DNA of 32,418 bases from an uncultured Pseudomonadota bacterium (GTDB taxonomy: Bacteria > Pseudomonadota > Alphaproteobacteria > UBA9219). Under the pieces are notes generated by a model. The model did no database searches. It was not told the DNA's origin and saw only the letters and a program-made list of their open reading frames with translations. How positions within the stretch are numbered: the stretch's first letter is position 1; each line of letters starts with the position of its first letter. Both the position numbers and the translations under genes were made by a program. The stretch covers positions 1-32,418 of the forward strand of contig CAIQVS010000078.1 of the NCBI GenBank assembly GCA_903875345.1, given 5' to 3'. This document shows, in pieces, positions 16,824 through 23,753 of the stretch.

Positions 16824-16855
16824 AAAAAAGAAGAGGCGCCTCCTCGGCAGGCCTC
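16824..16855 (-). terminator. Rho-independent terminator of the small RNA gene
   Basis: On the minus strand a GC-rich hairpin (16855-16833, GAG-GCCT paired with AGGC and CTC) is followed by TTC and six T residues (16829-16824). Confidence 0.6.
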
Positions 16856-16993
16856 GCAGCCCATTGTCGGCGGCGAACGAGGCCAGCGGCATACCGCTTT
16901 GTTTGTCTCGGCTGGCGACTTTAACCCGAATTCCGTAGGTGCACCGGGACCCGCTGTCTCTGACAAACCCTACCCCTTTGCGACGAGGTAGTA
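16824..16993 (-). ncRNA. Structured non-coding RNA, possibly 6S RNA (ssrS)
   Basis: The minus strand shows a possible promoter (TTGCAA at 17027-17022, 17-base spacer, weak -10 TAGGAA at 17004-16999), about 170 bases of strongly structured sequence, and a rho-independent terminator. Internal pairings include GTTTGTC with GACAAAC, GCGG-tatg-CCGC, and GGCCTCG with CGAGGCC, each perfect. Segments TCGGGTTAAAGTCGCC and AATGGGCTGCGAGGCCTGCC recall conserved parts of alphaproteobacterial 6S RNA, the regulator that binds sigma-70 RNA polymerase. The length also fits. I am fairly sure of a real RNA gene and less sure of its identity. No protein frame here is convincing. Confidence 0.5.
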
Positions 16994-17067
16994 CGATATT
17001 CCTATCACAACGGGTGATGGATTGCAAGAGGAATTTTTGACTATTTTTTTGGGCGGCGATCATTCCC

Positions 17068-17217
17068 TTAACGTCATTCCGGGGCGCGCCTTTAGGCGCG
17101 AACCCGGAATCCAGTTATAGGATCGGATAAAATGTGTTTGCGGGAACGCAAACTGGATTCCGGATAAAATCGCGTTTTTGCAAGGGCAAAAAGGCGATTT
17201 TTCCGGAATGACGTTAA
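17068..17217. repeat. MITE-like repeat copy 1 (15-bp perfect terminal inverted repeats)
   Basis: The 150-base element begins TTAACGTCATTCCGG and ends CCGGAATGACGTTAA, perfect inverted copies. It also holds internal hairpins such as GTTTGCG-ggaa-CGCAAAC. It has no coding capacity. A second, inverted copy lies at 18518-18664 on the other side of xseB-ispA. The TTAA at each outer edge may be a duplicated target or part of the element. Confidence 0.75.
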
Positions 17218-17251
17218 GAAGAAACGGAAAAGGAATAAAAAGGGAACCGCC

Positions 17252-18151
17252 TCAATTCCGCCGATCGACCACGAAGCGCGCCACGTCTTCAAGATGCTTG
17301 GCGCGGCCATCGAACACGGAGAGATGCTGGATCGCCTGTTCCGACAGCAGTCCCGCCTGATTGCGCGCGCGTTCCGCACCCAAAATCGTGACGAAGGTCG
17401 CCTTGCCCGCTTTGGCGTCGCGGCCAACTGATTTGCCGGTTTCCTCTTCGGTGCCTTCGGCGTCGAGCAGATCGTCGATGATCTGAAAGGCGAGGCCGAG
17501 ATCATGCGCATAGGCGCGCAGCGCGTTGTGATGCTGCAACGACGCCTTGCCGAGAATGGCGCCCGCTTCGGCGGAGAACGCGATCAGCTCGCCGGTCTTC
17601 ATGCGTTGCAGGCGCGTGATCGCGCCGATGTCGAGCTGGGTCGTCTCGGCGATGAGGTCGAGCATCTGCCCGCCCACCATGCCGTTCGCGCCCGCCGCGC
17701 GCGCCAGCGCCGCGATCAACTTGCAGCGCACCTGCGGGTCTTCGTGGGTGCGCGGATCGGCGAGGATTTCAAAGGCCAGAGTCAACAAGGCGTCGCCCGC
17801 GAGAATGGCGGTGGCTTCGTCGAATTTTTTATGCACCGTCGGATTGCCGCGCCGCAGGTCGGAATTGTCCATCGCCGGCAGATCGTCATGCACCAGCGAA
17901 TAGCAATGCACGCATTCGACCGCAGCGGCGGCGCGTTGGGCGCATTCGTCGGCGACGCCGAAAATCCGCGCCGAACTCATCACCAGAAACGGGCGCAGCC
18001 TTTTGCCGCCGTTCAAGGCGCTGTAGCGCATCGATTCGAACAGCTTGCTTTCGGGATAATCCGATTTCGGCAGGATGCGTTCGAGCGTATCGCCGACGGC
18101 TTTGACGGCATCGGCCATGGCAGCGGCAAGAGAGGGGCTGATGGAGGGCAT
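17252..18151 (-). CDS. ispA: Farnesyl diphosphate synthase (polyprenyl synthetase)
   Basis: IspA condenses DMAPP/GPP with IPP to make farnesyl diphosphate for undecaprenyl phosphate, quinones and other isoprenoids. The frame is open from 18268, but the family N-terminus begins at the ATG at 18151 (MPSISPSLAAAMADAV), giving 299 residues. Signatures are LNGGKRLRP, the first aspartate-rich motif VHDDLPAMD, the second IIDDLLDAEG, and the preceding GELIAFSAEAGA. The gene lies 23 bases after xseB, the common xseB-ispA order; dxs, often third, is not present here, and the pair is bracketed by inverted copies of a MITE-like repeat. The call is secure. Confidence 0.95.
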   Translation of the reverse strand: MPSISPSLAAAMADAVKAVGDTLERILPKSDYPESKLFESMRYSALNGGKRLRPFLVMSSARIFGVADECAQRAAAAVECVHCYSLVHDDLPAMDNSDLRRGNPTVHKKFDEATAILAGDALLTLAFEILADPRTHEDPQVRCKLIAALARAAGANGMVGGQMLDLIAETTQLDIGAITRLQRMKTGELIAFSAEAGAILGKASLQHHNALRAYAHDLGLAFQIIDDLLDAEGTEEETGKSVGRDAKAGKATFVTILGAERARNQAGLLSEQAIQHLSVFDGRAKHLEDVARFVVDRRN

Positions 18152-18174
18152 GGGAACTCGGCAGGGGTTGGGGG

Positions 18175-18432
18175 TTAAGAAGCGAACGGAGTGGTCGAAA
18201 CTTTGCCGTCGGGACCGACGGCGATCTGGTCGATGCGCGCCTGAGCCTCGCGCAGCTTGGCCTCGCAATGACGACGGAGATTCATGCCGCGCTCATAGGC
18301 CGACATCGCGTCGTCAAGCTTGGCCTTGCCGTCTTCGAGCTGGCGCACCAGTTTTTCCAACTCGGTCAACGCGTCCTCGAAGCTGAGCTTCAGGATGTCC
18401 GGCGGCAAGGGGGAAAGAGCGGGTTTGGTCAT
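18175..18432 (-). CDS. xseB: Exodeoxyribonuclease VII small subunit
   Basis: XseB forms the small helical subunit of exonuclease VII, which degrades single-stranded DNA with XseA (not in this window). The 85-residue product from the ATG at 18432 contains the family core LSFEDALTELEKLVRQLEDGKAKLDDAMSAYERGMNL in a helical hairpin. Two further in-frame ATGs lie 4 and 10 codons upstream, so the exact start is not certain. It is followed by ispA after 23 bases in a likely two-gene operon. Confidence 0.93.
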   Translation of the reverse strand: MTKPALSPLPPDILKLSFEDALTELEKLVRQLEDGKAKLDDAMSAYERGMNLRRHCEAKLREAQARIDQIAVGPDGKVSTTPFAS

Positions 18433-18517
18433 GGTCGGCGACATTAAGCCGATTTCCCGCATCGGAGCAAGGGTTGCGATTGTTGTCCCGACTCTTGCCG
18501 GTCAAAATGCAAAAAAC

Positions 18518-18664
18518 AACGTCATTCTGGAAAAATCGCTTTTTTGCTCTTGCAAAAATGCGATTTTATCCGGAAGCCAGTTTGCGTTCCCGAAAGCACG
18601 TTTTAGCGGATGGCGTAACTAGATTCCGCATAAATTTGCTGCGCAAATTTTGCGGAATGACGTT
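18518..18664. repeat. MITE-like repeat copy 2, inverted relative to copy 1
   Basis: The 147-base element has ends AACGTCATTCTGG and GCGGAATGACGTT. Read on the minus strand, much of it matches copy 1, for example GGGAACGCAAACTGG (17142-17156 versus the complement of 18577-18591) and the following CCGGATAAAATCGC stretch. Its left end has one mismatch, so it is older or more diverged. It fills most of the gap between xseB and the small membrane-anchored protein gene. Confidence 0.72.
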
Positions 18665-19520: not shown

Positions 19521-19626
19521 TGTATGATGTTTTTGTGCCTTCTTTTATTCGACAAAGTTATTATATATTATCAGGTATAGAAATACAACCTACCTAACGA
19601 AATCACCCCGCCACAGGAGCAACAGC

Positions 19627-20193
19627 ATGAAAATTTCCGTCGTTTACCACAGCGGCTACGGCCACACCGCCGAGCAGGCCAAAGCCGTCCTGCGCGGCGT
19701 TCAGTCCGTCAGCGGCGCCGAAGCCTTGCTGATTCCGGTGGCCGAGATCGAGCAGCATTGGGATAATCTGGAGCAATCCGCCGCGATTATTTTCGGCAGC
19801 CCGACCTATATGGGCAGCGTCAGCGCCGAGTTCAAAAAATTCATGGACGCAAGTTCCAAGGTCTGGTTCACCCGGAAATGGCAGGACAAACTCGCCGCCG
19901 GATTCACCAATTCCGCCAGCCAAAACGGCGACAAGCAAAACACGCTGACGACGCTCGCGGTCTTCGCCGCGCAGCACGGCATGATCTGGGCCAGCCTCGG
20001 CTTGCCGCCCGGCAACCATGACAGCAAGGGATCGGCCAACGATCTGAACCGGCTCGGCAGCGCGCTCGGCGCCATGGCGCAATCGAACGCCGATCAGGGG
20101 ACGGAGTCCGGACCGTCGCCCAGCGACTTGAAAACCGCAGAATATCTCGGTCAGCGCGTGGCGACCCTCGCGGCGCGTTTTGTCCGTAGGTAA
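19627..20193 (+). CDS. Flavodoxin-fold NAD(P)H:quinone oxidoreductase, WrbA-like
   Basis: The 188-residue protein has a flavodoxin fold: a phosphate-binding P-loop YHSGYGHTAEQA at residues 7-18, an FMN-ring loop GSPTYMGSVSAEFK (about 58-71), and FTNSASQNGDK plus GLPPGNHD later. WrbA-type enzymes reduce quinones by two electrons and avoid semiquinone radicals. The cytoplasmic enzyme uses FMN. The gene diverges from hxlR and precedes yceI by 34 bases, so the likely unit is a quinone/oxidant stress operon under HxlR control. An AGGAG-like Shine-Dalgarno (CAGGAGC) precedes the ATG. Small flavodoxin-family NADPH-dependent FMN reductases are the alternative. Confidence 0.85.
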   Translation: MKISVVYHSGYGHTAEQAKAVLRGVQSVSGAEALLIPVAEIEQHWDNLEQSAAIIFGSPTYMGSVSAEFKKFMDASSKVWFTRKWQDKLAAGFTNSASQNGDKQNTLTTLAVFAAQHGMIWASLGLPPGNHDSKGSANDLNRLGSALGAMAQSNADQGTESGPSPSDLKTAEYLGQRVATLAARFVRR

Positions 20194-20227
20194 TCTATCC
20201 CCCGTCAGCTGAATGGAGATTCTCGCT

Positions 20228-21847: not shown

Positions 21848-23305
21848 GCGTCCTGACCAAGACGCTGGCGAGTGAACTCGCCACCCAAACGTACAAGTAT
21901 GGCTTCGTCACCGCGATTGAATCCGAGACCGCGCCGAAGGGCTTGAACGAAGACACCGTCCGTTTCATCTCGGCGAAAAAGAGCGAACCGGAATGGTTGC
22001 TGGAAGGACGGCTGAAGGCCTTTCGCCACTGGCTGACGATGAAGGAGCCGGACTGGGCGAAGCTGAAACATCCGCCGATCGATTATCAGGATGCCTTTTA
22101 TTACGCAGCGCCGATGCAGAAGAAAAAACCCGGCAGCCTCGACGAGGTCGATCCCGAATTGCTGCGCGCTTATGAAAAGCTCGGCATTCCCTTGCGTGAA
22201 CAAGAGGTCTTGGCAGGGGTCAACCCGCGCGTCGCCGTGGACGCCGTGTTCGACAGCGTCTCGGTCGCCACGACTTATAAGAAAACGCTGGAGGATCAGG
22301 GCATTTTGTTTTGCCCGATTTCGGAAGCGGTGCAAAAATATCCGGAGCTGGTGAAAAAATATCTTGGCTCGGTCGTGCCGGTAACGGACAATTTTTTCGC
22401 CGCGCTCAATTCCGCCGTCTTCACCGACGGATCGTTCGTGTTCATTCCGAAAGGCGTCCGTTGCCCGATGGAGCTTTCGACCTATTTCCGCATCAATGCC
22501 GAAAACACCGGACAGTTCGAACGCACGCTCATCATCGCCGAGGAAGGGGCTTACGTCAGTTACCTCGAAGGCTGCACCGCGCCGAAGCGCGATGAGAATC
22601 AACTTCATGCGGCGGTGGTCGAGCTGATCGCGCATGACGATGCGCAGATCAAATATTCGACGGTGCAAAATTGGTATCCGGGCGACGAAAACGGCAAGGG
22701 CGGGATTTACAATTTTGTGACCAAGCGCGGCGCCTGTCGCGGCAAGCGTTCGAAAATCTCGTGGACTCAGGTCGAAACCGGATCGGCGATCACGTGGAAA
22801 TATCCGAGCTGCGTATTGCAGGGGCGATGATTCCGTCGGCGAGTTTTATTCGGTCGCCATCACCAGCCATCACCAGCAAGCCGACACCGGCACCAAGATG
22901 ATCCATATCGGCAAGAATACGCGCTCGACCATCGTCTCGAAGGGCATCAGCGCGGGCAAGGCGCAGAACACCTATCGCGGCTTGGTCAAAATCTTACGCA
23001 CCGCCAAGGGCGCGCGCAACCACACGCAATGCGACAGCCTGTTGATCGGCGACAGGTGCGGCGCGCATACGGTGCCGTACATCGAATCCCGCCAGCCTTC
23101 GGCGCGCGTCGAGCATGAAGCGACGACGTCCAAAATCAGCGACGACCAACTGTTCTATTGCCGCCAGCGCGGCCTGTCGCAGGAAGACGCAATGGCGCTG
23201 ATCGTCAACGGATTCTGCAAAGAAGTGCTGGCCGAACTGCCGATGGAATTTGCCGTCGAAGCGCAAAAGCTGGTGGGGGTTAGTCTGGAGGGAAGTGTGG
23301 GATGA
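21844..23305 (+). CDS. sufB: Fe-S cluster assembly protein SufB, frameshifted
   Basis: SufB with SufC and SufD forms the scaffold on which Fe-S clusters are built. The first part is intact SufB ([68 protein letters not shown]) to YPSCVLQG, where a stop appears in the wrong frame. The rest ([63 protein letters not shown]) continues one base further on. Removing one G from GGGG at 22821-22824 restores 486 residues of normal length with all key cysteines, including the one in [11 protein letters not shown] is the only Fe-S system visible here, so loss would probably be lethal; a sequence error or a frameshift mechanism should be considered before calling it a pseudogene. Confidence 0.88.
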
Positions 23306-23400
23306 CTGCGCTGCCGGAGTTCAATGATTATTTGGTTTTCGCTGATGAAGCGGAGGGGTATTCGTGGCTATATTGCACCGATTTAGGTGGCCGAAAAAAC
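23302..23400 (+). pseudogene. Possible gene remnant between sufB and the palindromic repeat
   Basis: An ATG overlaps the sufB stop (ATGA) and opens a frame beginning [19 protein letters not shown] that stays open only because it runs into the repeat. The DYLVFADE stretch faintly recalls the start of DUF3800 proteins (DYLVFxDESGDH). It may be the stub of a gene lost when the repeat arrived. The translated repeat that follows is surely not protein. Confidence 0.2.
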
Positions 23401-23403
23401 GGT

Positions 23404-23578
23404 CGTCATTCCCGCGAAAGCGGGAATCCAAGGACGCGCTTTCATCAGCGTCCTTTGCCGCGAAGCGGCAAAACGCCGCAAGAACTCATCGGTAGTTTTT
23501 ATGGCGTTTTGATGCTTCGCATCAAGCGCCCCCTGAAGAAAGCGGGGGCGCTGGATTCCCGCTTTCGCGGGAATGACG
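23404..23578. repeat. Palindromic intergenic repeat nest inside the suf operon
   Basis: Perfect 27-base terminal inverted repeats (23404-23430 and 23552-23578, core CATTCCCGCGAAAGCGGGAAT) enclose a chain of further hairpins: AGGACGC/GCGTCCT, GCCGC-gaa-GCGGC, TTGATGC-ttc-GCATCAA, and GCGCCCCC/GGGGGCGC. Each terminal repeat is itself a hairpin. The element has no coding capacity and separates sufB from sufC. The rest of the gap to 23753 holds nothing recognisable. The folded RNA could affect relative expression of the genes on either side. Confidence 0.8.
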
Positions 23579-23753
23579 AACCCCTTTTCGGGCTTTCAAA
23601 TCAACGCCGTAGAAAAAATGAAAGGACTCCGAGCTTCCCCAGAAGCCTGTCACCGACAGGGTTCCCTTGTCCTGAGTGCGCTGTAGCTCTTTTGTGCGAA
23701 AACAACAGCTTTGTTGTGCCTGTTAAACCTTAACCCATTGAGAAGTATCGAAG

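Follow-up and report, generated by a model that had tools for sequence, protein, structure and literature searches.

The two palindromic elements that flank xseB and ispA in an alphaproteobacterial genome are best read, with a probability we put at about 0.83, as independently placed copies of a palindromic, non-autonomous repeat that form neither a functional pair nor a gene cassette. Both lie in a 32,418-nt stretch of DNA (hereafter the window), which is contig C78 of a draft assembly; the genome amounts to 3.12 Mb in 454 contigs, numbered likewise, with a completeness of 99.6% and an estimated contamination of 8%. This reading clears away a tempting wrong story of an inversion cassette and a lost dxs gene, and it establishes, for one order of Alphaproteobacteria, a palindromic repeat family whose fold can be checked.

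W1, W2 and the repeat family

The first element, W1 (17070-17215, forward strand, 146 nt), lies 36 nt 3' of the ispA stop codon, and the second, W2 (18518-18664, reverse strand, 147 nt), lies 5' of xseB. Both are near-palindromes, with AACGTCATTC at the start and its complement GAATGACGTT at the end, and the termini of W1 are perfect over 16 nt. Mismatch-free AACGTCATTC was found at exactly four places in the window, which are the four ends of W1 and W2. These bounds bear out the preliminary description, in which two mutually inverted elements of about 150 bases with such terminal repeats flanked the xseB-ispA pair. W1 and W2 form an inverted repeat of 111 nt with 86% complementarity (arms 17105-17215 and 18518-18628). 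However, the described opposite orientation carries little meaning, because the element is nearly palindromic and the covariance model of the family matches every copy on both strands (154.6 and 90.3 bits for W1). Both elements folded far better than shuffled sequences on either strand (z = -9.5/-9.1 for W1 and -7.2/-6.7 for W2). Degenerate outer arms (CAAAATT..) are present beyond W2 and may extend it by about 30 nt per side.

Further copies, for which a genome search had been proposed, proved abundant. A blastn search with W1 against its own genome returned 42 matches, and the covariance model detected 28 loci at E < 1e-21 together with a tail of partial or truncated ones. GTCATTCCGS sites numbered 136 in the genome, compared with 7 for a reversed control pattern. 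Among the loci read, the W1/W2 type (family A) comprises 16 full copies of 144-183 nt, and a sister type (family B) of about a dozen copies differs in its terminal bases and in having outer arms of greater length (TTACCACCCTTCAAAATTTT). Remnants of outer arms surround about half of the copies, including W2 but not W1, and a 47-nt derivative (C362:3957-4003) has lost the inner arms and retains intact outer ends and one hairpin. The copies are mostly intergenic, in gaps between tandem (16), divergent (6) or convergent (3) genes; some overlap predicted open reading frames (ORFs). The earlier label of MITE-like elements is upheld by copy number, intergenic position, hairpin formation, size and termini. 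Literature searches, including searches with the terminal sequence, found no description of the family.

Relatives carry the family unevenly. By DNA similarity it was present in 11 of 39 genomes searched, and the structure model found related elements in 14 of 25. The carriers fall into three families within a single order, and in many relatives the repeat is absent. Palindromes of the form GTCATTCCGGCGAAAGCCGG set within outer arms AACCCGTAGCTCGGGTTT make up another repeat type, observed on C100, C421, C55 and other contigs; on C421 it stands a few bases from a W1-like copy.

The consensus fold combines two stems, the outer one and a central GGAATCC/GGATTCC stem, with two side hairpins, the second of which is AAAATCGC..GCGATTTT. 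The first side hairpin occurs in three alternative sequences; W1 carries the class GGGGCGCGCC..GGCGCGAACCC and W2 the class GCAAAATTTGC..GCAAATTTATGC. In the alignment of the 16 full family A copies, 97.1% of the structure cells were paired and 12 pairs had changed on both sides, most of these double-sided changes stemming from the three hairpin 1 sequences and hence not being independent events. None of 500 shuffles reached the covariation of the 16-copy set, and the structure slid by 1 to 3 columns paired at no more than 57%. Supporting the fold, comparison between genera revealed seven pairs with compensatory changes and 98.5% pairing (slid controls, at most 59%), in stem segments that were picked by eye, mostly from one element per species, a choice that favours structure. 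Stems covarying between genera include GTCATTCC/GGAATGAC, GTCATCCC/GGGATGAC and GTCTTTCC/GGAAAGAC. Copies of the W1/W2 family thus share a covarying cruciform fold.

The covariation can be read in more than one way. Against a reading in which copies simply spread, part of it reflects swaps of whole arms among the three classes of hairpin 1, an outcome that template switching could equally yield. The repeats might instead be lineage-specific cruciform mobile elements that exchange hairpin arms between copies, keep the three-armed fold and are copied as folded single-stranded DNA by an enzyme acting in trans. The 47-nt derivative, which kept a hairpin with intact ends, and the stems that covary between genera bear on this idea, which we regard as decidedly improbable.

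We also considered that the folded repeats are retained for a function in RNA, such as stabilising 3' ends, offering an RNase III site, or acting as a weak terminator or attenuator. The strong folding, the compensatory changes and the location of W1 just beyond the ispA stop are in keeping with such a role, as is the processing of transcribed Correia and ERIC elements by RNase III or RNase E (review PMC10969869). However, terminator calls in the region (6, with 5.5 expected) showed no excess over chance, the copies occupy tandem, divergent and convergent gaps and not chiefly 3' ends, and Rfam contained no match to the repeats. An RNA role is therefore unlikely to account for the retention of the repeats. 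The preliminary description had both elements supplying hairpins at the ends of transcription units; this holds for W1, but W2 lies upstream of xseB.

xseB-ispA in its genomic context

The only recognised genes between W1 and W2 are ispA (polyprenyl synthetase, 17252-18151, reverse strand; PF00348, 1.5e-59), which is also supported by synteny and is part of no mobile unit, and xseB (exonuclease VII small subunit, 18175-18432, reverse strand; PF02609, 6.8e-19). It had been suggested that W1 and W2 could recombine to invert this segment of 1.3 kb; such an inversion would be either a switch or a past event. Apart from the 111-nt inverted repeat itself, the evidence runs against inversion. The orientation of xseB-ispA relative to Rrf2-sufB was identical in each of the 13 relatives in which the linkage is retained: nine show the window order, ispA(-) xseB(-) Rrf2(+) sufB(+), and four more the same order read from the opposite strand, among them the short contig of relative G004, which stops within the Rrf2 gene. 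In relative G005 the order corresponds gene by gene to that of the window (xseB, HxlR, the gene at 19603-20213, Rrf2, suf). Repeats of the GTCATTCC type were absent from the ispA loci of 18 relatives within the stretches scanned on both sides. The same order and orientation in relatives without the repeats indicate that xseB-ispA was neither inverted nor moved, and conserved synteny without repeats was what the preliminary description had itself named as grounds for giving up its proposal. Additionally, W1 and W2 share no exact match longer than 16 nt, where the median for family members is 26, an invertase gene was not seen near xseB-ispA, and a single orientation was found in this genome and the 13 relatives. 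Inversion by the two elements is thus highly improbable.

The proposal that the segment moves as a unit fared no better. Two related elements do flank the genes, and MITEs flanking a gene have been reported for other bacteria, as indicated by the title of a reference in PMC10969869. However, the hairpin class of W1 is not that of W2, and both have closer relatives at other places in the genome: W1 shares 99% identity with a copy on C421 and 86% with W2, whose nearest copy, on C115, is 88% identical. The genes occupy their ancestral place beside Rrf2-suf, and the genome contains no duplicate of them, its second ispA-like match being a paralogue of 34% identity. A composite transposon is recognised by near-identical flanks and a transposase that lies within the unit or acts on it; here the flanks are of different subtypes, 86% identical, and xseB and ispA were the only genes recognised between them. 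We consider a composite mobile unit extremely improbable, to the point of setting it aside. Nor does the bracketing require a special cause, since 40 copies placed at random should give about one pair of neighbours no more than 2.1 kb apart; comparable close pairs occur on C115 and C452.

The absence of dxs, the usual third gene, had been attributed to a rearrangement at the repeats. dxs is indeed not adjacent to xseB-ispA in the window and sits on C187, but the proposed cause was rejected. A search of 18 relatives from the order, repeat-free ones included, detected no dxs next to ispA, coverage downstream of ispA being only 1-4 kb in four of them. As a positive control, the same query detected dxs within 3.5 kb of ispA at 38 loci of other bacteria, 59 of the 80 control loci having sufficient room. 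Judged by the relatives and this control together, the absence of dxs predates the repeats.

Repeat X to the left of W1

A different multicopy repeat, X (16824-17046, reverse strand), lies to the left of W1 and has promoter-like and terminator-like ends. It occurs in 11 copies in this genome (those outside the window on C257, C351, C200, C259, C303, C182, C350, C100, C164 and C421) and in none of 38 relatives, with identities of 87-98% over most copies. Conserved TTGCAA and TAGGAATAT elements are separated by a variable spacer, the body contains paired variants (GCGGtatgCCGC / GCGAtataTCGC), and there is a GC hairpin followed by TTCTTTTTT. A codirectional gene begins about 20-140 nt downstream of X in six of seven readable cases; these downstream genes, of housekeeping type, are tsaE, obgE, a gyrase-B-type topoisomerase subunit, lptF, a PmbA/TldD peptidase and SBP_bac_5. 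X may be offered as a candidate multicopy small RNA or leader, and an RNA function is no more than a lead, because its predicted fold is no better than that of shuffled sequences (z = -1.1) and the alignment shows clear covariation at only one pair.

The left side of W1 could mark a true rearrangement point, at which ispA lost its ancestral downstream neighbour, an SBP_bac_5 gene that now lies on C259, through recombination at X or at the cluster of repeats. In four relatives (G004, G005, G007 and G011) an SBP_bac_5 gene follows ispA, and in G024 it comes after an FtsJ/TlyA-like gene. The SBP_bac_5 gene of the present genome lies about 20 nt from an X copy that terminates its contig (C259:14988-15139), and the APH gene left of W1 stands near ispA in no relative. 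However, nine of the 11 X copies are at contig ends, so that the real arrangement may be C259-X-W1-ispA, with the join at X in the window an assembly chimera; moreover, the broken place is X and not W1. A genuine rearrangement on this side is possible, though we lean against it. The break at X reflects either a chromosomal rearrangement or a mistaken join in the assembly of the window. Separately, we note that in G024 the FtsJ/TlyA-like gene still follows ispA.

Spread of the repeats and comparison with known systems

Returning to W1 and W2 as independently placed copies, we propose the following course of events. The non-coding unit consists of two dRS3-like palindromes (GTCATTCCGG-hairpin-CCGGAATCC) set face to face across a variable centre, and sequence and covariation show that either strand can fold into a three-armed cruciform. 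Copies would have spread among intergenic sites, probably mobilised in trans by an enzyme that takes the palindromic ends, or else the extruded single strand, as its recognition site; copies landing between genes would persist. The xseB-ispA pair has kept its ancestral place and orientation; its transcript receives a strong 3' hairpin from W1, while W2 contributes structure 5' of xseB, both evident in the sequence and both of which may influence expression. Insertion is deduced from presence or absence between genera, the genus of this bacterium being represented here by one genome.

Inspection of 27 copies for target duplication, at the core ends and close to them, revealed abutting direct repeats of at least 3 nt in none, and the longest direct repeats were the same as those between unrelated copies (mean 6.1 vs 5.8). 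A transposase with matching ends, which the preliminary description had proposed to look for, was not found: no insertion sequence (IS) with GTCATTCC or TTACCACCC ends was present among the sites listed in this draft assembly. Two candidates were rejected. The single Y1_Tnp gene of the genome is IS200-like, with hairpins of its own and without GTCATTCC ends. Inverted GTCATTCC ends 1.2 kb apart on C55, a possible parent IS, proved to be an IS30-like gene inserted in a related repeat. This IS30-like transposase gene (C55:4200-6600, locus L205; 541-1542, reverse strand) lies inside a GTCATTCCGG palindrome, and its insertion recalls the use of REP palindromes as targets by several IS families (PMC1525189). 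Repeats of this kind can attract IS elements and mark rearrangement points, and knowing them aids the annotation of these genomes.

The family shares with prokaryotic MITEs (Correia, ERIC, RPE and CIR) a size of 50-500 bp, non-coding sequence, terminal inverted repeats, multiple copies and intergenic location. It differs in showing no target duplication and no same-ended parent IS among the sites listed. Like REP/BIME sequences, which RAYT transposases mobilise, it comprises many intergenic palindromes with compensatory changes and inverted pairs; unlike them, it lacks the GT(A/G)G head by which REPs are defined (PMC2817692) and ends in GTCATTCC. No RAYT gene between two inverted REPs was found, the single IS200-like Y1_Tnp gene having no such flanks.

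The closest likeness in plan is to the intergenic mosaic elements of Neisseria (NIMEs), in which a core of 50-150 bp lies between inverted 20-bp dRS3 repeats, ATTCCC(N8)GGGAAT; a single genome can hold as many as about 700 copies of dRS3 (PMC3898611, PMC9778887). A third element in the window, absent from the preliminary description, displays this pattern exactly. It is longer (23403-23580, forward strand, about 180 nt; GTCATTCCCGCGAAAGCGGGAATCC...GGATTCCCGCTTTCGCGGGAATGAC), belongs to the same superfamily as W1 and W2, folds strongly (z = -13.4) and lies inside the suf gene cluster; the ORF that spans it (23302-23733) is probably not a gene. Its dRS3 matches occupy both ends (23408-23427 and 23555-23574), whereas W1 and W2 have ATTCCG arms with longer hairpins in place of N8, so that strict 20-bp arms are confined to the third element. 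All full copies nevertheless have the NIME architecture of a core between inverted palindrome copies. The shared features are two inverted ATTCC..GGAAT palindromes around a variable core, a length of 70-200 bp, intergenic location and many palindromes per genome; the differences are that no long arrays were seen here, that the host is an alphaproteobacterium and that the core is not known as an RS family. The resemblance of the W1/W2 repeat to NIME/dRS3 is one of plan, as distinct from established common descent.
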